From the NCBI GenBank assembly GCA_030038295.1, contig JASHPF010000151.1:1-64000 (forward strand): DNA of 64,000 bases, written 5' to 3'. The position numbers were made by a program, and so were the translations under genes. Positions 46,122 through 59,304 of this stretch are shown here, piece by piece (the stretch's first letter is position 1; each line of letters starts with the position of its first letter). The notes beneath the pieces were generated by a model. It was not told the origin of the DNA. It saw only the letters and a program-made list of their open reading frames with translations, and did no database searches. This stretch comes from Streptosporangiaceae bacterium. GTDB lineage: Bacteria; Actinomycetota; Actinomycetes; Streptosporangiales; Streptosporangiaceae.

Positions 46122-46607
46122 CTAGGCGACTTGGTCGGCGCTCGCCGCGAGGGCGGACCAGCCCCGGTTCGCATAATCGGCGAAATCAGGCTGCCGTCGT
46201 TCATATCGCCGGGCGAACAGCGGCGACGAGATCATGTAGTCAGCGCTCGACCGGTTGCACGCAACCGGGATGTTCCAGGCCACCGCGAGCCGTAGCAGCG
46301 CCTTGACGTCGGGATCATGCGGATGCGGCTCGAGCGGATCCCAGAAGAAGATGAGCATGTCCACCGCGCCGTCCGCGATCCGGGCGCCGATCTGCTGATC
46401 ACCGCCGAGCGGCCCGGAGCGCAGGCAGGTAACCGGAATACCCAGCTCGGCTGCCAGCAGCTGGCCGGTGGTTCCGGTCGCGACCAGGTCATGCTGCGCG
46501 AGCAGGGCGCGGTTGAACCTGGCCCACTCGGCGATGTCGCGCTTGCAGTTGTCGTGGGCGATCAGCGCGATCCTGCGGCGGACTGGATTCTCCGGATGGC
46601 CACCCAT
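46122..46607 (-). CDS. mgsA: methylglyoxal synthase
   Basis: MgsA converts dihydroxyacetone phosphate to methylglyoxal, a bypass that relieves phosphosugar stress. The 161-residue protein has [12 protein letters not shown], the phosphate-binding ATGTTG, and the catalytic Asp in [12 protein letters not shown] (Asp70). [20 protein letters not shown] completes the family signature. The usual length is ~150 residues. ATG 46607 is used; GGAG lies only 1 nt upstream, so the start is a little uncertain. Confidence 0.93.
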
Positions 46608-46790
46608 GCTCCTAGCTTGCCGTCGCGGCGTTTCCCAGCCGGGAACGCGACGTTGCCTGCATGTTGCGGGTTGGCCATCGTTTCCGGCAGCCCGGCCGGA
46701 CCGCGCCAGGCCGGCCAGTGTCGCGTCGCCTACGATGCAGTCGGCAGCAGCAGGCGTCGTAGCCCGTTCGCCGACCCGGGATGTGGTGTC

Positions 46791-47927
46791 ATGACGGTGA
46801 CCGGCGCCATCTGGCGCGACCAGCTCAGCGGCGACGAGCGCGCCGTGCTCGGCCGCGCCGACGACGGCGTGCCGGGCTCGCGGCCGGATGTGCTCGTCGT
46901 GGGCGGCGGCATCGTGGGCGTCAGCACCGCATTCGCGTGCGCAGACGCCGGGCTCGGCGACGTGCTGCTGATCGAGACGGGCCGACTGGGCGCCGGCGCG
47001 ACCGGCGGCGCCACCGGGCTGCTCATCCCCGAGCCGCACCAGTGGAGTGACCCGGCGCCCTTCGTCGACCTCGAGCGTGCATCGCTGCAACAGTGGCGCG
47101 ACCTGCAGCAGACGCTGCCGGGCGGCGTCGGCCTAGTCGAGCTCGACTGGCTCGGGCTGGCACCGCACGCCAGCGGTTTCGCCGCGCACCAGCCGCGCTA
47201 CGTCGAGTGGCTCAATCCGGGCCAGGTGGCCGAGCTCGTGCCCGGCCTCGCGCGGCCGATGGAGGGCGCGCTCATCCGCCGCCAGGCCCGCGTCAACCCG
47301 CTCCGGGCGGTGGCCAGGCTCGCGACCCGGCTGCCCGCCGTGGCGACCGGAGTCGCGGCCACATCCGTCGACATCCGCGGTGACCGGATCGTCGGCGTCG
47401 GCACGTCCAGCGGCACGATTACCCCCGGCGTGGTGGTATTCGCCACCGGCAGGCCGCCGGTGCTGGACGGGCTGCCGCTGCACATTCCGTCGGACCGGGT
47501 CAAGGGCCACCTGCTGGTGACCGAGCGAACGGAGGTAACGCTGCCCGGCATCGTGGCACCGGTCGGCACCCAGATCGAGAACGGGCAGCTGCTGGCGGGC
47601 GGCACCTTTGACGCGGACGACGAGACCCCTGCGGTCCAGCCCGACGTGATCAACGCGATCGCCGCCAGCCTTGCCGCGGTTCTGCCGCCACTGCGCGGCA
47701 TCGGGGTTGCCTATCAGTGGTGCTGCTTCCGGCCGCGGCACCCGGACCGCCGGCCCGTCATCGACAGGGTGCCCGGCCTCGGCAACGCCTGGCTGACGTC
47801 GGGGCACTTCCGCACCGGAATCCTCAACGCTCCGGCCACGGCGGCCGTGTTGACCAGCTGGATCGCGACGGGCGTCCCGCCAGCCGACGCCCGCACGTGG
47901 TCCGCGACCCGCTTCGGCGGGCGCTAG
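46791..47927 (+). CDS. FAD-dependent oxidoreductase (DAO/ThiO-like)
   Basis: This 378-residue flavoenzyme is in the D-amino acid oxidase/glycine oxidase superfamily. The dinucleotide fold is [15 protein letters not shown] (33-47), and the late FAD motif is [19 protein letters not shown]. The substrate is probably a small amine or amino acid. ATG 46791 is used; the long upstream frame is a shadow of mgsA. A TACGAT hexamer (46731-46736) lies inside a 9-bp inverted repeat (46730-46762) that may fold in the leader. The 3' end overlaps selB by 4 bp, convergently. Confidence 0.85.
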
Positions 47928-49858
47928 CGGTCGAGCGCAGCCGCCGCCGCTGTCGCGTCGGCGGCGACTGACGCGTCCGGGACGCGCGCCGGAGCCGCCG
48001 CTCCGTCCCGGCCGACCGTGGCCCGGAGCACCCTGCGGTCATCGGCCAGCCGCTCGGTGATGCCTGCCGCATCGAGGAACTCCAGCAGCGGGATCGCGGT
48101 CCGCCGGGTAGTACCGAGCGCCTGCCGCGCCTCTGCCGCCGTGAATGGCTGGTCGAGCCCGGACAAGATCGCCGCGGCCGCCTCGTCCGCGCCTGGTGCT
48201 AGCACCACCTGATCGCTGATGCGCAGCAGCTCCCCGGCCCGCACGGCGACGGCGATGCTGCGTGCGTCCAGCCCCAGCTTGCGCAGGCGGCTGGCGTCCG
48301 GAGACGCAAACGGGGCAGCGGCGAGATCGGCGCGCAGCACCTGGATCGCGGCCTGCGCGGACTCCGGCAGCTTCGGCCCGGCCGTCGACCCGCCCAGGCC
48401 GATCTGCACGGCGCCGCAGGAAATCCGGAACGGCGGCCTGGCCAGCGCCGTGACAAGCCGGCGGTCCGGCAGATCAAGGGCCTCCCTGGCCACCTCGATC
48501 GGCAGGCCCGCGGCCAGCGGCTCGGCCGCGGCGTGACTCGCCAGCACCTCACCTAGCTGGTGGGAGAGCGCCCGCCAGCGGTCAGGATCGGCAAGCCACT
48601 CGCCAGTCACTGGCTCGGGCAGCTCCGGCACGCCCATCGCCAGCAGCGCGCTGCCGCGCAGCAATCCGTGCCGGGCGAGCAACTCGGCCGCGGTCGGCCG
48701 GTCCGGCCAGCTGGCGAGCTGTCTCGCGGCCGCGGCGGCGGCCCCGCGGCGAGCTAGCGGCGGCGGCGCGACATCGAGCACGACCGCCCCGCTCACCGGT
48801 GGCCACCAGTCGGGCCGCCGGGTGCCGGGATCGCGCAGCAACAGCCGGTCGCCGACATGGACCGGCAGCGGGTCGGCGAGGCCGAGCCGGGCCAGTCCGG
48901 GTCCCAGCGGGCGCACCCGGGCGATGACCCGGGCAGAACCGACATGAAGCGCGACCGACCGACCGAGCTGGCCAGGTGCCGCGGTCCCGGCGCCCGGTTC
49001 GCCTGCGGCACCCTCGCCGTCCGCAGCGGGCGGCGGAGACACCGCCCCGATCCGCACGTCCAGCACGTCGGTGAGAGTCCACCGGCCGGGCGACACGAGC
49101 GCGGTGCCCCGGTGCAGCGTGTCCCGGCTCACGCCGGCCAGGTGCAGCGCCACTCGGGTGGGGCCGGCCGCCGCGTCCACTGGCTTGCCCAGCACCTGGA
49201 GCTCGCGAACCCGGACCGGCCGCATGCCGGGAGTGAGCAGCAGCTGATCGTCCTTGTGCACGGTGCCAGCTGGCAACGTGCCCGTCACGACGGTGCCACC
49301 AGAGACGCTGAACGACCTGTCGATCCAGATCCGTACCGCGGCGCCCGGATCGGGCGCAGCCTGCCCAGCGCACCACTGGTCAAGCGCCGCGACTAGGTCC
49401 GGGACGCCCGCGCTGGTGGCCGAGCTGACCGCGACGGCCGGGACGGCACCGAGCGGGCTGCCCGCGATCCGCGCCGCGGCCTCCGCCAGCGCCGGGCCCG
49501 GATCGGCAAGGTCGCTCTTGGTGACCACGAGCAGCGCCTGGCTGACGCCGAGCGCGCTCACGACCGCCAGGTGCTCCGCGGACTGGGGCATCCAGCCCTG
49601 GTCCGCTGCCACGATGAAGAGGACGGCGGGCACCGGGGCAGCTCCGGCCAGCACGCTGGCGATGAAGCGCTCCGGGCCTCCGGCGTCGACAAGACCCAGC
49701 TGCGCGCCTGAGGGCAGGGTGAGCCAGGCGAACCCCGGTTCGGCGGTGCCGCCGCGCTGGGCGTCGGCTGGTCCGCCGTCGGGCTGTACGCCAGTGAGAG
49801 CGTGAATGAGCGCCGACTTACCGTGGCCGACCTGGCCGGCGGTAGCGACGATCAGCAT
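47924..49858 (-). CDS. selB: SelB-like elongation factor with altered GTPase motifs
   Basis: This 644-residue protein aligns along the whole length of SelB, the factor that brings selenocysteyl-tRNA to UGA codons: G domain (1-170), two beta-barrels, a linker, and C-terminal winged helices (FTAAEARQALGTTRRTAIPL). The GTPase motifs are degraded. G1 is AGQVGHGKS (usual form AGHVDHGKS/T) and G3 is DAGGPERF (usual form DVPGHERF), so the catalytic His is Pro62. TKSD (G4) is intact. No selA, selD or tRNA-Sec is in the window. ATG 49858 has GGAG upstream; GTG 49867 is an alternative. It may have lost GTP hydrolysis or be a paralogue with another role. Confidence 0.85.
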   Translation of the reverse strand: MLIVATAGQVGHGKSALIHALTGVQPDGGPADAQRGGTAEPGFAWLTLPSGAQLGLVDAGGPERFIASVLAGAAPVPAVLFIVAADQGWMPQSAEHLAVVSALGVSQALLVVTKSDLADPGPALAEAAARIAGSPLGAVPAVAVSSATSAGVPDLVAALDQWCAGQAAPDPGAAVRIWIDRSFSVSGGTVVTGTLPAGTVHKDDQLLLTPGMRPVRVRELQVLGKPVDAAAGPTRVALHLAGVSRDTLHRGTALVSPGRWTLTDVLDVRIGAVSPPPAADGEGAAGEPGAGTAAPGQLGRSVALHVGSARVIARVRPLGPGLARLGLADPLPVHVGDRLLLRDPGTRRPDWWPPVSGAVVLDVAPPPLARRGAAAAAARQLASWPDRPTAAELLARHGLLRGSALLAMGVPELPEPVTGEWLADPDRWRALSHQLGEVLASHAAAEPLAAGLPIEVAREALDLPDRRLVTALARPPFRISCGAVQIGLGGSTAGPKLPESAQAAIQVLRADLAAAPFASPDASRLRKLGLDARSIAVAVRAGELLRISDQVVLAPGADEAAAAILSGLDQPFTAAEARQALGTTRRTAIPLLEFLDAAGITERLADDRRVLRATVGRDGAAAPARVPDASVAADATAAAAALDR

Positions 49859-50105
49859 GGCGGTCACTCCGGGCCCGCGCGTTAGCCCGCCGCAGCAGGA
49901 CGCGGGTCAGCGAGGACGACCCCCGCGCGCCGGGGGAGCCTGCGGACGTCCACGACCGCGACCATACCTGCCGGCTGCCGTGGCACGGCAGCGGCTGAAC
50001 AGCTCTTCCGACCCGATTTACCAGCACTTTGCCGAAGGAACCCGCCGCCGAGTGACGAGCATGTGTAAGTCTTTAAAGAACCGATTGCGCGGGGAAGTGG
50101 ATGAC

Positions 50106-50708: not shown

Positions 50709-50726
50709 CCGCGCCAGGCCAGCCGG

Positions 50727-51203
50727 TTACGCCACCCGCCTGGCGGCCGGGCCGGGCAGCGGCGTGACGTCGCGCGCCGAGCCGAGGACGTGCCCGGCGG
50801 CGCACGTCAGCTCCAGCCGCACCGGCGCGCCGCAGTCCCGGTGCGTCAGCAGCACCGGCGCTCCGTCGGGTCCGGCCGCGTACCTGTCGCCCCAGGTCAG
50901 CAGCGCGACGACGAGCGGGAACAGGTCCAGGCCCTTATCGCTCAGCCGGTATTCCTCGCGCGGCCGCTGGCCCTCCTCGCGATAGGGCACCTTGCGCAGG
51001 ATCCCGTCACCAACCAGCCGTGCTAGCCGGTTGCTCAGTACCTGGCGCGGCATGCCGGTCCGCCGCTGCATGTCGTCGAACCGGCGTACGCCGTTAAACG
51101 CCTCGCGCAGCACCAGGAACGTCGACCTCTCCCCCACGACCTCGAGCGCCGCCGCGATGGTGCAGCTGGCGGTGTCGTAGTCGAGGGCCCACGATCGTCT
51201 CAT
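50727..51203 (-). CDS. HxlR family transcriptional regulator
   Basis: This 158-residue regulator has the HxlR winged helix: CTIAAALEVVGERSTFLVLREA, RFDDMQRRTGMPRQVLSNRLARL, and the wing PYREEGQRPREEYRLSDKG. The C-terminal part holds a CGAPVRLELTCAAGH segment whose cysteines could bind metal or sense redox. TAGCCT ends 6 nt before the ATG, so it is leaderless. It diverges from the GNAT gene across 55 bp and probably controls both. Confidence 0.9.
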   Translation of the reverse strand: MRRSWALDYDTASCTIAAALEVVGERSTFLVLREAFNGVRRFDDMQRRTGMPRQVLSNRLARLVGDGILRKVPYREEGQRPREEYRLSDKGLDLFPLVVALLTWGDRYAAGPDGAPVLLTHRDCGAPVRLELTCAAGHVLGSARDVTPLPGPAARRVA

Positions 51204-54220: not shown

Positions 54221-54319
54221 CCCGGCGCCCGTCCTCCCGCCTGCAGTGCTGCCTGACGGTCATGCCACCACGGCGGTCGCATATCCGCAAGACGCAGCGC
54301 GCCGGGCGGCAGGGGGCAG

Positions 54320-54706
54320 TCAGGCGTACCGGCGCGTTGGGACGATCCGGGTGCCGAGCGGCAGCAGCGTGATCGGAATGATCTTGAAGCTGGCGAGGCC
54401 CAGCGGAATGCCGATGATCGTCAGGCACAGCGCGACGCCCGCGATCAGGTGGCCGAGGGCGAGCCACCAGCCGAACAGGATGATCCACAGGACGTTACCG
54501 ATCACCGAGCCCACCCCGGCGTCGGGGCGGCGCTCAGCGGTGCGGCCGAACGGCCACAGCACGTAGCTCGCGATCCGGAACGCCGCTATGCCGAACGGGA
54601 TCGTCACGATCAAAATCAGGCAAATCACTCCAGCTATGACATAGGCGATGGCCATCCAGATGCCTTCAAGCACCAGCCACACGATGTTCAGAAGTGCGTC
54701 GAGCAT
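54320..54706 (-). CDS. YccF domain membrane protein
   Basis: This 128-residue protein consists of two copies of the YccF repeat. Each has a hydrophobic helical hairpin and the conserved TIPFGIAAFRIASYVLWPFG or TIIGIPLGLASFKI. The family is widespread and its function is unknown. The ATG has GGGGGG upstream. It diverges from the AhpD-like gene. Confidence 0.9.
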   Translation of the reverse strand: MLDALLNIVWLVLEGIWMAIAYVIAGVICLILIVTIPFGIAAFRIASYVLWPFGRTAERRPDAGVGSVIGNVLWIILFGWWLALGHLIAGVALCLTIIGIPLGLASFKIIPITLLPLGTRIVPTRRYA

Positions 54707-55258: not shown

Positions 55259-55555
55259 ATGTACGGAAGACCAGGGCTAGTGCGCCGTCGGCCGCTGCTG
55301 CGCGCGGCGGCGATCGGGGGCACCTTCGCGGCCGGAAGGGCGACCGGCCGCCGCGCGGCGGAGCAGGCCGACGCCGCTGCCTATCAGGACGACAGCCGCG
55401 GGCAGCCGGTGCAGGCGGCCCAGGCCGTCCAAGGCGGCGAGACCGCACCGGCCTCGTCTGCCGACCAGCTCAGCCAGCTAGCTGAACTGCACCAGCAAGG
55501 CGCCCTGACCGACGAGGAGTTCGCCGCCGCCAAGGCGAAGATACTCGGCGGCTAG
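55259..55555 (+). CDS. SHOCT domain small protein
   Basis: This 98-residue protein has a basic N-terminus with one short hydrophobic stretch (LRAAAIGGTFAAG) and a C-terminal SHOCT domain (LSQLAELHQQGALTDEEFAA). SHOCT domains are short helical hairpins found in many membrane-associated proteins. AAAGGA lies 7 nt before the ATG. It is probably transcribed with the AhpD-like gene. The function is unknown. Confidence 0.8.
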   Translation: MYGRPGLVRRRPLLRAAAIGGTFAAGRATGRRAAEQADAAAYQDDSRGQPVQAAQAVQGGETAPASSADQLSQLAELHQQGALTDEEFAAAKAKILGG

Positions 55556-55654
55556 CCGCCGCCGTCGTGCGGCGCCGGACCGGCGGATTGCGTGTCCGGC
55601 TGCCGTCCGGGTCTGCGGGAGAGTGTCGAGCGACGGCCGCGTGGGAGGTCACGC

Positions 55655-56404
55655 ATGGCGCATCCGGTGGTGCACTTCGAACTCAGCGGCCCGGATGACA
55701 GGGAGCTCGCCGGGTTCTACGCGGAGTTGTTCGGCTGGCGGGTGCGCCCGGTGCCGGGCATCAGATACACCCGCATCGATACCGGTGGCGGCATCAACGG
55801 CGGCGTCGCGGCCGCCGCTGACGGCCCGGCCACAGCGACCTTCTACATCGAGACCGACGACCTTCAGGCCGCGCTGGACAAGATCAACCTGATCGGCGGC
55901 AAGACCGTGCGACCCATCACCGAGCTGCCCGGCATGGCGACCTATGCCCTGTTCGAGGATCTGGACGGCCTCGTCGCCGGGCTGGTGCTCGGGGCCGGCG
56001 AGTCCGGCGCGCCGACGGCCGCACAGACCGAGATGCCCGCGGCCGATCGGGCCGACGGCCCCCCGGTGGACTGGTTCGAGGTGCTGGGCACGAACGCGAC
56101 GCGCAGTCAGCGCTTCTACGCCGAGGTCTTCGGCTGGCAGGTGAGCCCGGCCGCCGTCGGCTACGGGATGGTGGACACCGGCACGACCCGCGGGATCCGC
56201 GGCGGCATCGGGGCCGCCGGTCCCGGCCCATGGAGCACCGTCTACGCAGCCGTCAGCGACGTGGCGGCGACCCTCGCCAGCTCCGAACGCCTCGGCGGGT
56301 CACGGGTCCACGGCCCGGTCGTGATCGACGACCACAGGGACATCGGCGCACTGCGTGATCCGGCCGGCAACGTGCTCGGCGTGTACCACCACCGGCCGCA
56401 CTGA
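55655..56404 (+). CDS. two-domain VOC (glyoxalase/bleomycin resistance-like) protein
   Basis: This 249-residue protein contains two vicinal-oxygen-chelate domains (about 1-120 and 130-249), each of the form H-x-E-L/V ... FYAELFGW. HFELSGPDDRELAGFYAEL begins the first and WFEVLGTNATRSQRFYAEV the second. VOC proteins bind a metal or a small ligand between beta-strands. GGAGG lies 7 nt before ATG 55655. It could be an antibiotic-binding protein or a dioxygenase-like enzyme; the sequence does not say. Confidence 0.85.
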   Translation: MAHPVVHFELSGPDDRELAGFYAELFGWRVRPVPGIRYTRIDTGGGINGGVAAAADGPATATFYIETDDLQAALDKINLIGGKTVRPITELPGMATYALFEDLDGLVAGLVLGAGESGAPTAAQTEMPAADRADGPPVDWFEVLGTNATRSQRFYAEVFGWQVSPAAVGYGMVDTGTTRGIRGGIGAAGPGPWSTVYAAVSDVAATLASSERLGGSRVHGPVVIDDHRDIGALRDPAGNVLGVYHHRPH

Positions 56405-56431
56405 ATCGCCGCGCCGGCCCCGTGCCGGAGG

Positions 56432-57298
56432 TCAGCTCGAAACCGACGGGTCCAGCAGGCCGCGGCGGCGGCGGATCGCAAGATCGGCCTTGGTGAAGAT
56501 CATGTCAACCACGATGCCGAGGATCAGGATCACGATGATGATCGAGGTGACTCCCCTGAAGTCCTGGACGCTCTCATCGGTGTTGAGCAGCACTCCGAGG
56601 CCAGGCGGACCGACGATCGACACGACGAGCTCGCCTGCCATGAGGCTGCGCCAGGCGAACGCCCAGCCCTGCTTGAGCCCCGCGACGAAGGCCGGCAGCG
56701 AGGCCGGCACGATTAGGTACCGGTAGAGCGTCACCCCGCGTAGGCCCATCGTCCGTCCGGCCCGCAGCAGCAGCGGTGGCGTGTAGTCGACGCCGGAGAT
56801 CAGGCCGTTGGCGATGGACGGCGCGGCACCCAGGATCATCACGAAGATGATCGCGTCCGTGCCCTGGGTAAACAGGATGATCGCGAACGGATACCACGCG
56901 ATCGAGGGCATCGTTTGCAGGCCGGTGATGATCGAGCCGATCGCGGCGCGGAGCGGCGGGATCCTCGCCACCAGCAGCCCCACGACCGAGCCAACCAGCA
57001 GGGCCACCAGGTAGCCGATGAGCGCGCGCTTCATGGTCACGCCGATGGCCGCCCAGAGCTGGCCGTGGCCGGCCATCTGCCACAGGTCGGACAATACCGA
57101 GCCAGGACCCTGGAGGACGAAGTGCTTCCAGCCGGTCAGGTGCACGATCTGCCAGACGGCGAGCACCAGCCCGACCGCGAGCACCTTCGGCCACGTCTTG
57201 GCCCACGCCCTCCTGGCCAGCCGGGCCGGCCCGCGGTCGTGCGCCGCCCCGCTGAGCTCAAGGCTGTCCAGGCCGTGCAAAGCCTGGTTAGCTGCCAT
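56432..57298 (-). CDS. sulfonate/nitrate/taurine-type ABC transporter permease
   Basis: This 288-residue permease has six helices and the EAA loop AGRTMGLRGVTLYRYLIVPA, typical of SsuC/TauC/NrtB. It ends RRRGLLDPSVSS. ATG 57298 lies inside the end of the ATPase gene (11-bp overlap), so it is translationally coupled to it. It is the last gene of a three-gene operon. Confidence 0.92.
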   Translation of the reverse strand: MAANQALHGLDSLELSGAAHDRGPARLARRAWAKTWPKVLAVGLVLAVWQIVHLTGWKHFVLQGPGSVLSDLWQMAGHGQLWAAIGVTMKRALIGYLVALLVGSVVGLLVARIPPLRAAIGSIITGLQTMPSIAWYPFAIILFTQGTDAIIFVMILGAAPSIANGLISGVDYTPPLLLRAGRTMGLRGVTLYRYLIVPASLPAFVAGLKQGWAFAWRSLMAGELVVSIVGPPGLGVLLNTDESVQDFRGVTSIIIVILILGIVVDMIFTKADLAIRRRRGLLDPSVSS

Positions 57299-58127
57299 GC
57301 CGCCCCATCTCCTCTCGCAGCCGTTCAGTCAGCAGGCCGGCGAGCTGCGCGACCTCGGGACTGTCGGTCCGCCGCGGGCCGCGCGGCGCCGCGTACTCCG
57401 CGATGACCCGGCCCGGCCGACTGCTGAGCACGATCGTCCGGTCCCCCAGCCTCGCCGCCTCCCGGACGTTGTGCGTGACGAACAGCACCGTCAGCGTCCG
57501 GTCCGTGCAGATCCGCTCTAGCTCGTCGTGCAGCAGGTCCCTGGTCATCGCGTCGAGCGCGCCGAACGGCTCATCCATCAGCAGGACGTCCGCGTCCTGC
57601 GCCAGGGCGCGGGCCAGCGCCACCCGCTGCCGCATGCCGCCAGACAGCTCGTGCGGACGCTGGCCGGCGAAGCCCTGCAGCCGCACCGCGGCCAGCAACT
57701 CGGCCACCTGCGCCTGCCGGGCAGCTTTCGGCACCCCCCTAGCGCGAAGCGCTAGCTCGACGTTGCGCCCCGCGGTCAGCCACGGAAACAGGGCCGGCTC
57801 CTGGAACATCAGGCCTACCCGGCGGCCGCCGGCCTCGACGCGCCCCGATGTCGGCTTGTCGAGTCCGGCCACGAGGTTGAGCAGCGTGCTCTTACCGCAG
57901 CCGGAGGCGCCGATGATGCACACGAACTCGCCGTCGCGCACCGTCAGCGACACCCCGTCGAGTGCGAGCAACTGCGTCCGGCCGGTCCCGTAGGACTTGC
58001 TGACGCCGGTGAGCCGGACGGCTTCGGCCGCGGCTGCGGGCGGCGGTGCCTCCTGGTGCGCACCGGGCAAGGCTGACGCCCCCGGCGCGGCCGCTGGGGG
58101 CGTCAGCTGGTTGTCGCGTACCGTCAC
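57288..58127 (-). CDS. sulfonate/nitrate/taurine-type ABC transporter ATP-binding protein
   Basis: This 279-residue ATPase has Walker A GASGCGKS (73-80), signature LSGGMRQRVALA and Walker B VLLMDEP, with THNVREAARLGD as the switch. The first ~35 residues are an Ala/Pro-rich extension. The GTG start overlaps the stop of the binding-protein gene as GTGA. Confidence 0.92.
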   Translation of the reverse strand: MTVRDNQLTPPAAAPGASALPGAHQEAPPPAAAAEAVRLTGVSKSYGTGRTQLLALDGVSLTVRDGEFVCIIGASGCGKSTLLNLVAGLDKPTSGRVEAGGRRVGLMFQEPALFPWLTAGRNVELALRARGVPKAARQAQVAELLAAVRLQGFAGQRPHELSGGMRQRVALARALAQDADVLLMDEPFGALDAMTRDLLHDELERICTDRTLTVLFVTHNVREAARLGDRTIVLSSRPGRVIAEYAAPRGPRRTDSPEVAQLAGLLTERLREEMGRHGS

Positions 58128-59167
58128 GATCCGACCGTCGGCTGGCCGTCCGCAGCCAGCAGCTTGTTCAGCGGCGCGAGGTCGAATATCGCGGTCAGGT
58201 CGCTGACAGGCTTGAGCAGACCCAGTGACACCGCGTGCGAGGCGTCGGCGACGAGCGAGCTCTCGATCGGGTCATCGGTGAAGGTGACCTGGGCGAAGGA
58301 CGCCGCCAGCACGGAGGACTTGAGTCCCTTGCCGGTCAGGCTCGCCAGCTCCGCGTTAGCCGCGCTCTCGGCGGCCGACTTGTGGCTGGCGATGTAGGAG
58401 TTCGCCTCGATCTCGGCCTTCAGCAGGTCACTGACCACGGTGGGGTTGGCGGCCAGGAACGGCTGCGTCACGACGAGCAGCGTGGTCACGAACTGCCCGC
58501 CCGGCCAGAGAGTCGCCTCGTTGACGAGGACGTGCCCGCCGTCGGCGACCATCTCGGTGTCGTAGGGTGCGGGCTCCCAGCCGCCGGCGATCTGGCCGGA
58601 GGCGAACTGCAGCACTGCCGCGGAGTTCGGCGTGATCGGCGTCACGGGCACGTCGCCACCGCCGGTGGGCGTGGTGGTCAGGCCCTGCGTCTTCAGCCAG
58701 TAGCGCAGCGAGACATCCTGAGTATTGCCGAGCGACGGGGTCGCCAGCTTCTGACCCTTCAGCTGGCTGGCACTCGTGATGTTCTTGTTGACGACCAGCT
58801 CTGCGCCGCCCGATGCGGCACCGGAGATGACCTTGATCAGCGTGCCGTTGGACTTCTGCCAGGTGTTGATCGCCGGGTTAGGGCCAACGTAGGCGGCATC
58901 GAGCTGCCCCGCCAGCAGTGCCGTCGCCTCTTCGGTACCGGTGCTGTAGGGATACAGCTTGAGCGTGACGTTCTTCCCCAGGTTCTTGGTGAAGAAGCCG
59001 TCCTTGACGCCGATCAGCGCGGGTGCGTGCGTGATGTTCTCAAGGAAGCCGAGCCGGAGCACAACCTTCTTCGCCGGCGTGCTGCCGGAGCTGGCCACCG
59101 ATGAGCCGCACCCGGCCGCGAGCACAGTCATGCCCGCGACCACGAACCCGGCAAGCAGTCTCCGCAT
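58124..59167 (-). CDS. sulfonate/nitrate/taurine-type substrate-binding lipoprotein
   Basis: This 347-residue protein is a lipid-anchored binding protein of the SsuA/NMT1 type, with Cys20 in VLAAGC. VVLRLGFLENITHAPALIGV and ATALLAGQLDAAYVGPNPAIN match the family. The ligand (sulfonate, taurine or nitrate-like) is not decided by the sequence. ATG 59167 has AGGTGG upstream, and the longer frame is not needed. A 17-bp palindrome lies in the leader. Confidence 0.92.
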   Translation of the reverse strand: MRRLLAGFVVAGMTVLAAGCGSSVASSGSTPAKKVVLRLGFLENITHAPALIGVKDGFFTKNLGKNVTLKLYPYSTGTEEATALLAGQLDAAYVGPNPAINTWQKSNGTLIKVISGAASGGAELVVNKNITSASQLKGQKLATPSLGNTQDVSLRYWLKTQGLTTTPTGGGDVPVTPITPNSAAVLQFASGQIAGGWEPAPYDTEMVADGGHVLVNEATLWPGGQFVTTLLVVTQPFLAANPTVVSDLLKAEIEANSYIASHKSAAESAANAELASLTGKGLKSSVLAASFAQVTFTDDPIESSLVADASHAVSLGLLKPVSDLTAIFDLAPLNKLLAADGQPTVGS

Positions 59168-59182
59168 AGTTCCACCTTTTCC

Positions 59183-59216
59183 TATCGAATAACTCGATAT
59201 TTGCACCAGGAGTTTA
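59183..59216 (-). promoter_or_regulatory. promoter and palindromic operator of the sulfonate-type operon
   Basis: On the minus strand TAAACT (59211-59216) is a plausible -10. The perfect palindrome TATCGA-N5-TCGATA (59183-59199) begins a few bases after the predicted start point and ends 15 bp before the ATG. A repressor there would block elongation or loading. Confidence 0.5.
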
Positions 59217-59304
59217 CATTGCGGTCGGGAGAAGTTCACCTGATGCGCGAGTATCAGCGGGACGGACCAGCGGACGTGGGGCTGACCGCGCCGCGCGTGC
59301 AGCG

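Follow-up and report, generated by a model that had tools for sequence, protein, structure and literature searches.

The selB-like gene and its surroundings

The window (the whole analysed stretch of 64,000 nucleotides from a Streptosporangiaceae genome bin, contig JASHPF010000151.1) contains a gene for a full-length SelB-like protein, called SelBx here, together with the places at which related genomes carry the other genes of selenocysteine (Sec) incorporation:

46317-47927, forward strand: FAD-dependent (DAO) oxidoreductase, a conserved neighbour of native selB
47924-49858, reverse strand: SelB-like paralogue SelBx, 644 aa, full length, start codon ATG at 49858
48017-48757, reverse strand: domain IV, four winged helices (SECIS-binding in SelB), Pfam PF09107, evolving at the canonical rate
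49867-49870, reverse strand: Shine-Dalgarno-like GGAG, 8 nt ahead of the ATG at 49858, predicted from the sequence
49868-49960: site of selA in the congeners, between selB and a membrane-protein gene; selA is absent in the window
50709-50726: site of tRNA-Sec in the congeners, between the HxlR and membrane-protein genes; 18 bp remain
50727-51203, reverse strand: HxlR-type regulator, the conserved neighbour on the other side of selB
54221-54322: site of selD in the congeners; selD is absent in the window
55400-59300: site of the Sec-formate dehydrogenase operon in the congeners; a glyoxalase-family gene and an NMT1-type ABC transporter are found instead

The first-pass annotation had placed a SelB-type reading frame with the motifs AGQVGHGKS and DAGGPERF at 47924-49858 of the reverse strand, and both the place and the residues are correct. 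The best start is the ATG at 49858, which together with the ribosome-binding site is intact. An MGS-domain reading frame (46122-47090, reverse strand) overlaps that of the oxidoreductase, and the true starts of the two probably lie further in.

Pfam identifies an EF-Tu-type GTPase domain and, above the respective cut-offs, the SelB beta-barrel and winged-helix domains, domain IV scoring 57.2 bits against a cut-off of 23.2 (PF09107). The score for the SelB equivalog TIGR00475, 198.3 bits, is below the cut-off of 242; part of this shortfall may reflect the divergence of the lineage. The predicted structure is that of a complete SelB (best PDB match 4zu9, followed by 5lzb), with mean pLDDT 82 against 81 for a canonical control, switch I being poorly ordered in both, so that the predicted structures of SelBx and the canonical SelB control are not distinguishable.

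Changes in the GTPase motifs

The G-motifs of SelBx are as follows (residue numbers in the numbering from M1, all on the reverse strand):

49814-49840: G1/P-loop AGQVGHGKS (residues 7-15); His9 replaced by Gln and the catalytic Asp11 by Gly, Walker A GxxxxGKS kept
49730-49756: G2/switch I RGGTAEPGF (35-43), canonically RGMTIDLGF; Thr kept, the preceding residue replaced by Gly
49664-49687: G3/switch II DAGGPERF (58-65), canonically DVPGHERF; catalytic His62 replaced by Pro
49511-49522: G4 TKSD (113-116), intact

The catalytic pair of E. coli SelB, Asp10 and His61, thus corresponds to Gly11 and Pro62. These residues were compared across 87 different SelBs, drawn from the window's GTDB family and class. 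The G3 His is kept in 85 of them, the exceptions being SelBx and the protein of one congener (genome G001), and all 85 others have AGH in the P-loop. The first-pass annotation would have taken the G3 sequence for a normal actinobacterial variant if all relatives with working Sec insertion shared it; the His in 85/87 SelBs rules this out, and the variant is real. It is restricted to these two species.

The G001 protein has the P-loop AGQPDHGKS and G3 DVPGLDRF, and RGMT of switch I is missing. The substitutions H9Q, R19H and L41P are identical in both proteins, and the catalytic His is lost in both, to Pro in SelBx and to Leu in G001. The P-loop Lys and Ser and TKSD are retained in both. In total, SelBx carries changes at 14 of 55 near-invariant positions in the G domain, the G001 protein at 14/55, and six canonical congeners at none, while in domains II-III the corresponding numbers are 1/31 for SelBx and 6/31 for G001. 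Hence the P-loop and Pro62 changes noted at first are real, but the three residues then listed understate the extent of change, which includes switch I; of the remainder described as intact, TKSD and the winged helices are so, switch I is not.

Both the His of switch II and the Asp of the P-loop are described in a review as universal and as crucial to GTP hydrolysis on the ribosome in EF-Tu and SelB (PMC5311926), in agreement with the earlier statement that SelB and EF-Tu need this His; release of tRNA by SelB requires the hydrolysis (PMC5311926). As two universal catalytic residues are gone, loss of GTP hydrolysis is expected, and SelBx has probably lost its ribosome-stimulated activity, judging by the motifs.

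The ancestral Sec locus and its dismantling

In seven other congeners a canonical selB is found in the same gene neighbourhood, accompanied by selA, and where sampled, tRNA-Sec, selD and the Sec-formate dehydrogenase (FDH) genes are present in a fixed order. In G003 and G006 this order is Sec-fdhA operon, selD, AMP-ligase, GNAT, HxlR, tRNA-Sec, membrane protein, selA, selB, FAD oxidoreductase, MGS/MoaA, and the fdhA product reads ...NQARI-U-HSATVPG. The flanking genes in the window keep the order of the congeners. In G001 selA and tRNA-Sec are likewise absent from the locus, and the contig ends short of the selD and FDH region. A search with PF00384 finds Sec-type FDH genes (with one in-frame TGA) in G003, G006, G007 and G008 and none in the window genome (G000) or G001, both of which are incomplete. 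G007 and G008 have two Sec-formate dehydrogenases each, with nearly identical SECIS elements (L113, L114, L119, L120).

SelBx is orthologous to the selB of the congeners, as follows from the same neighbours and from the tree, in which SelBx and its G001 counterpart are joined in a single clade with support 100 within the actinobacterial congeners. As the comparison with the congeners shows, the window holds the ancestral Sec locus of the genus, with only selB retained.

A second sel cassette on other contigs

The absence of selA, selD and tRNA-Sec near SelBx, as noted in the first-pass annotation, holds for the window, where a scan for tRNA genes found none and hence no tRNA-Sec, but not for the genome. 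The genome search proposed there for these genes and for a second selB finds tRNA-Sec (66 bits, anticodon TCA), selD and selA together on a 3.9 kb contig (C357), while contig C62 begins with the C-terminal part of a second selB (112 aa, with 57% identity to the matching part of SelBx). Loss of the Sec system from the genome is thereby rejected: the paralogue coexists with selD, tRNA-Sec, selA and a partial second selB, and therefore the Sec system has been replaced, not lost. Genome G001 carries the same two pieces (contigs C408 and C383).

Downstream of the second selB, C62 contains mobA, an aldehyde:ferredoxin oxidoreductase-like gene, fdhA with Cys (TRLCHASSV), and nuoEF-like and moeA-like genes, the names being a reading of the translations. 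A sel cassette thus lies beside a Cys enzyme, second selB being followed by mobA, AOR and an fdhA whose Cys takes the position of Sec in other FDHs (L056, G000:C62 402-6034; L060, G001:C383). Both assemblies break inside selA and selB of this cassette, so the link between C357 and C62 and the N-terminal part of the second SelB are inferred. The same stretch is missing in G000 and G001, the contigs ending in selA or selB (L055 3146-3871 and L056 1-340; L084 and L060 1-586). Since both ends of the second selB lie exactly at contig ends, a technical cause for its truncation is most likely. Phylogenetic trees built for the SelA and SelD of the second cassette do not single out an origin for it. 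In G008 two different selA pieces occur at an apparently single native locus (L063 3-881, G008:C291; L085 3-800, G008:C418), and one of them matches the second-cassette SelA with 87% identity across residues 204-339, which may reflect recombination or a mixed bin.

As the N-terminal part of the second SelB is unassembled in both species, neither G000 nor G001 shows a canonical G domain directly, and this would allow SelBx to be still the Sec elongation factor, with a slow or altered cycle, the second selB being a fragment or redundant. We regard this as decidedly unlikely, as both universal hydrolysis residues are gone in SelBx and a deletion in G001 removes the switch I Thr, selA, tRNA-Sec and selD have vanished from the side of SelBx but accompany the other cassette, and the second selB is cut exactly at contig ends.

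An artefact of assembly or binning, with the window contig or the second cassette coming from another organism, is extremely improbable. The genome is indeed a bin of 423 contigs, 87% complete and with about 6% contamination, but G001 has a broken selB in the same place, the same losses of selA and tRNA-Sec and the same second cassette, and most of the neighbouring genes are 85-92% identical in it.

Selection on SelBx

In the G domain, SelBx and the G001 protein differ from canonical congeners at 35-41% of positions, compared to 6-22% among the canonical proteins themselves; in the winged helices they differ from the congeners as much as canonical ones do. Codon models with branch lengths shared across domains give the same picture. 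Foreground/background omega is 0.132/0.043 for the G domain (p 1.8e-6) and 0.108/0.047 for domains II-III (p 3.3e-4), with no difference in winged helices 1-2 (0.044/0.062) and 3-4 (0.066/0.046). Since synonymous sites are near saturation, the absolute values are rough and the ratios count more. Stem-branch omegas are not identifiable; on each of the two terminal branches omega=1 is rejected in all three domain blocks (p <= 2e-9). Plain codon-position counts, free of any model, agree: differences between the window and G001 in the three codon positions are 0.20/0.17/0.44 in the G domain and 0.13/0.10/0.42 in the winged helices. The reading frame is open in both species.

The GTPase and tRNA-binding domains thus show a 2-3 fold relaxation of constraint, and domain IV, where purifying selection on SelBx is strongest, shows none. 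A pseudogene, with omega near 1 and a broken frame, is rejected by the codon models and the codon-position differences. The first-pass annotation had offered three options, namely a protein that needs no hydrolysis to work, one with a novel function, or a paralogue in decay that outlived the true Sec system. The paralogue part of the last stands, the Sec loss does not, and the strong purifying selection seen in each of the two species with this variant contradicts decay. A slowly decaying relic with no function would fit the loss of the partner genes from the locus, the 14/55 changed G-domain positions and the faster protein evolution of the GTPase domain. Still, it is very unlikely, given the open frames, the rejection of neutrality in every domain on both terminal branches, the codon-position bias, the canonical rate of domain IV, and a start codon and ribosome-binding site that are both intact.

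Some constraint persists in the relaxed G domain and domains II-III (omega about 0.1), and therefore a role that still uses nucleotide or tRNA is possible. One form of it is a GTPase-independent binder of aminoacyl-tRNA resembling the archaeal aSelBL proteins, in which GTP and tRNA binding are kept and aminoacyl-tRNA is guarded or delivered without hydrolysis. This is consistent with the P-loop Lys and Ser and TKSD being kept in both species, with the single broken near-invariant position of 31 in domains II-III of SelBx, and with the properties of aSelBL MM1309, which binds GTP and Cys-tRNACys without detectable GTPase activity and has Tyr in place of the catalytic His (PMC4329189). On the other hand, it is domains II-III that are relaxed compared to canonical SelB (p 3e-4), not domain IV, six of the 31 positions are changed in G001, and aSelBL has no domain IV (PMC3037878), which makes a binder of this kind rather unlikely.

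Search for an RNA partner

The SECIS of the congeners' Sec-FDH genes (TGACACTCCGCCACCGTCCCCGGTCTGGGGAC...) was used as a covariance model (R1), with which these elements score 75-78 bits; it is not found in G000 or G001. The best match, 24.9 bits in contig C236, was rejected, as it lacks the stem and is antisense to another gene. The native SECIS is accordingly rejected as the RNA partner of SelBx, nothing credible being present in the two genomes, and any RNA ligand of SelBx would therefore be another one. Hairpins with GGUCU-type loops are no more frequent in the window than by chance (2 seen, 3.3 expected). A SECIS-like hairpin with an AGGUCU loop, AGCTGCAGGTCTTGCAGCT, lies at position 12064 of C62 (L056/L199), antisense to a trpB-like gene, and is probably a chance occurrence.

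Proposed history and function

SelBx would be the original selB of the genus. In the common ancestor with G001 the native Sec locus would have been dismantled: the Sec-formate dehydrogenase, selD, tRNA-Sec and selA would have disappeared from it, and the second cassette, elsewhere in the genome, would have taken over Sec decoding. Freed of tRNA delivery, SelBx would then have lost GTP hydrolysis, through both catalytic residues here and through the His and the switch I Thr in G001, yet it is kept as a folded, probably nucleotide-binding protein that would bind GTP but not hydrolyse it on the ribosome. Its domain IV would most likely bind a SECIS-like RNA hairpin, and SelBx would act as a regulator or competitor and not as an elongation factor. 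RNA-level control by SelB has a precedent, since E. coli SelB autoregulates through a SECIS-like RNA (Thanbichler and Boeck 2002, as cited in PMC8124441).

The pattern of selection suggests recruitment of SelBx for a new job rather than simple decay. We hold the whole account, from the ancestral gene in a dismantled locus to a hydrolysis-dead RNA-binding regulator or competitor, tentatively, at slightly less than an even chance. That a SelB turned into a GTPase-dead RNA-binding regulator after takeover by a second cassette, with its delivery parts relaxed and its SECIS-recognition domain fully constrained, is plausible, with the balance tilted somewhat towards doubt.

Comparison with known systems

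No report of a GTPase-broken SelB paralogue in bacteria was found in the literature searched. In a survey of translational GTPases no more than a single duplication of SelB is counted for bacteria, or two if CysN is included (PMC4342817), and in a 2026 review of prokaryotic selenoproteomes the words "paralog" and "duplicat" are absent (PMC13188914).

Compared to bacterial SelB (TIGR00475; 4zu9, 5lzb), SelBx is, judged by its position and the tree, directly orthologous to the selB of the congeners, with 66-68% identity, and shares the full layout of domains G, II, III and IV. It differs in the lost catalytic Asp and His, the altered switch I, the lack of adjoining selA, selD and tRNA-Sec, and the score under the equivalog cut-off; SelBx is descended from SelB but, as defining features tested here fail, stands outside the active SelB family. 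In E. coli, hairpin-bound SelB controls expression, but SelB there is normal and active (Thanbichler and Boeck 2002, via PMC8124441). A Bacteroides EF-G paralogue, as cited in PMC12775393 (Han et al. 2023), is a translational GTPase paralogue also kept without GTP hydrolysis, though of another family (EF-G) and with another function (translocation).

The locus documents replacement of a Sec system with selB alone retained. As the RNA domain is kept, the locus can be compared gene by gene with the congeners and a second cassette is present, a SelB function free of GTP hydrolysis becomes testable here.

The nearest parallel to SelBx is archaeal aSelBL (PMC3037878; MM1309, structure 2ELF, PMC4329189), a SelB paralogue with a broken GTPase and an unsolved role. 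Like SelBx, it is conserved and SelB-derived, with a disrupted G domain and the catalytic His lost. Unlike aSelBL, which has no C-terminal mRNA-recognition domain (PMC3037878), SelBx has domain IV, and it also keeps the P-loop length and G4. aSelBL is archaeal, while SelBx is of independent bacterial origin and found in two species only, being a bacterial case in which the RNA-recognition domain is present.
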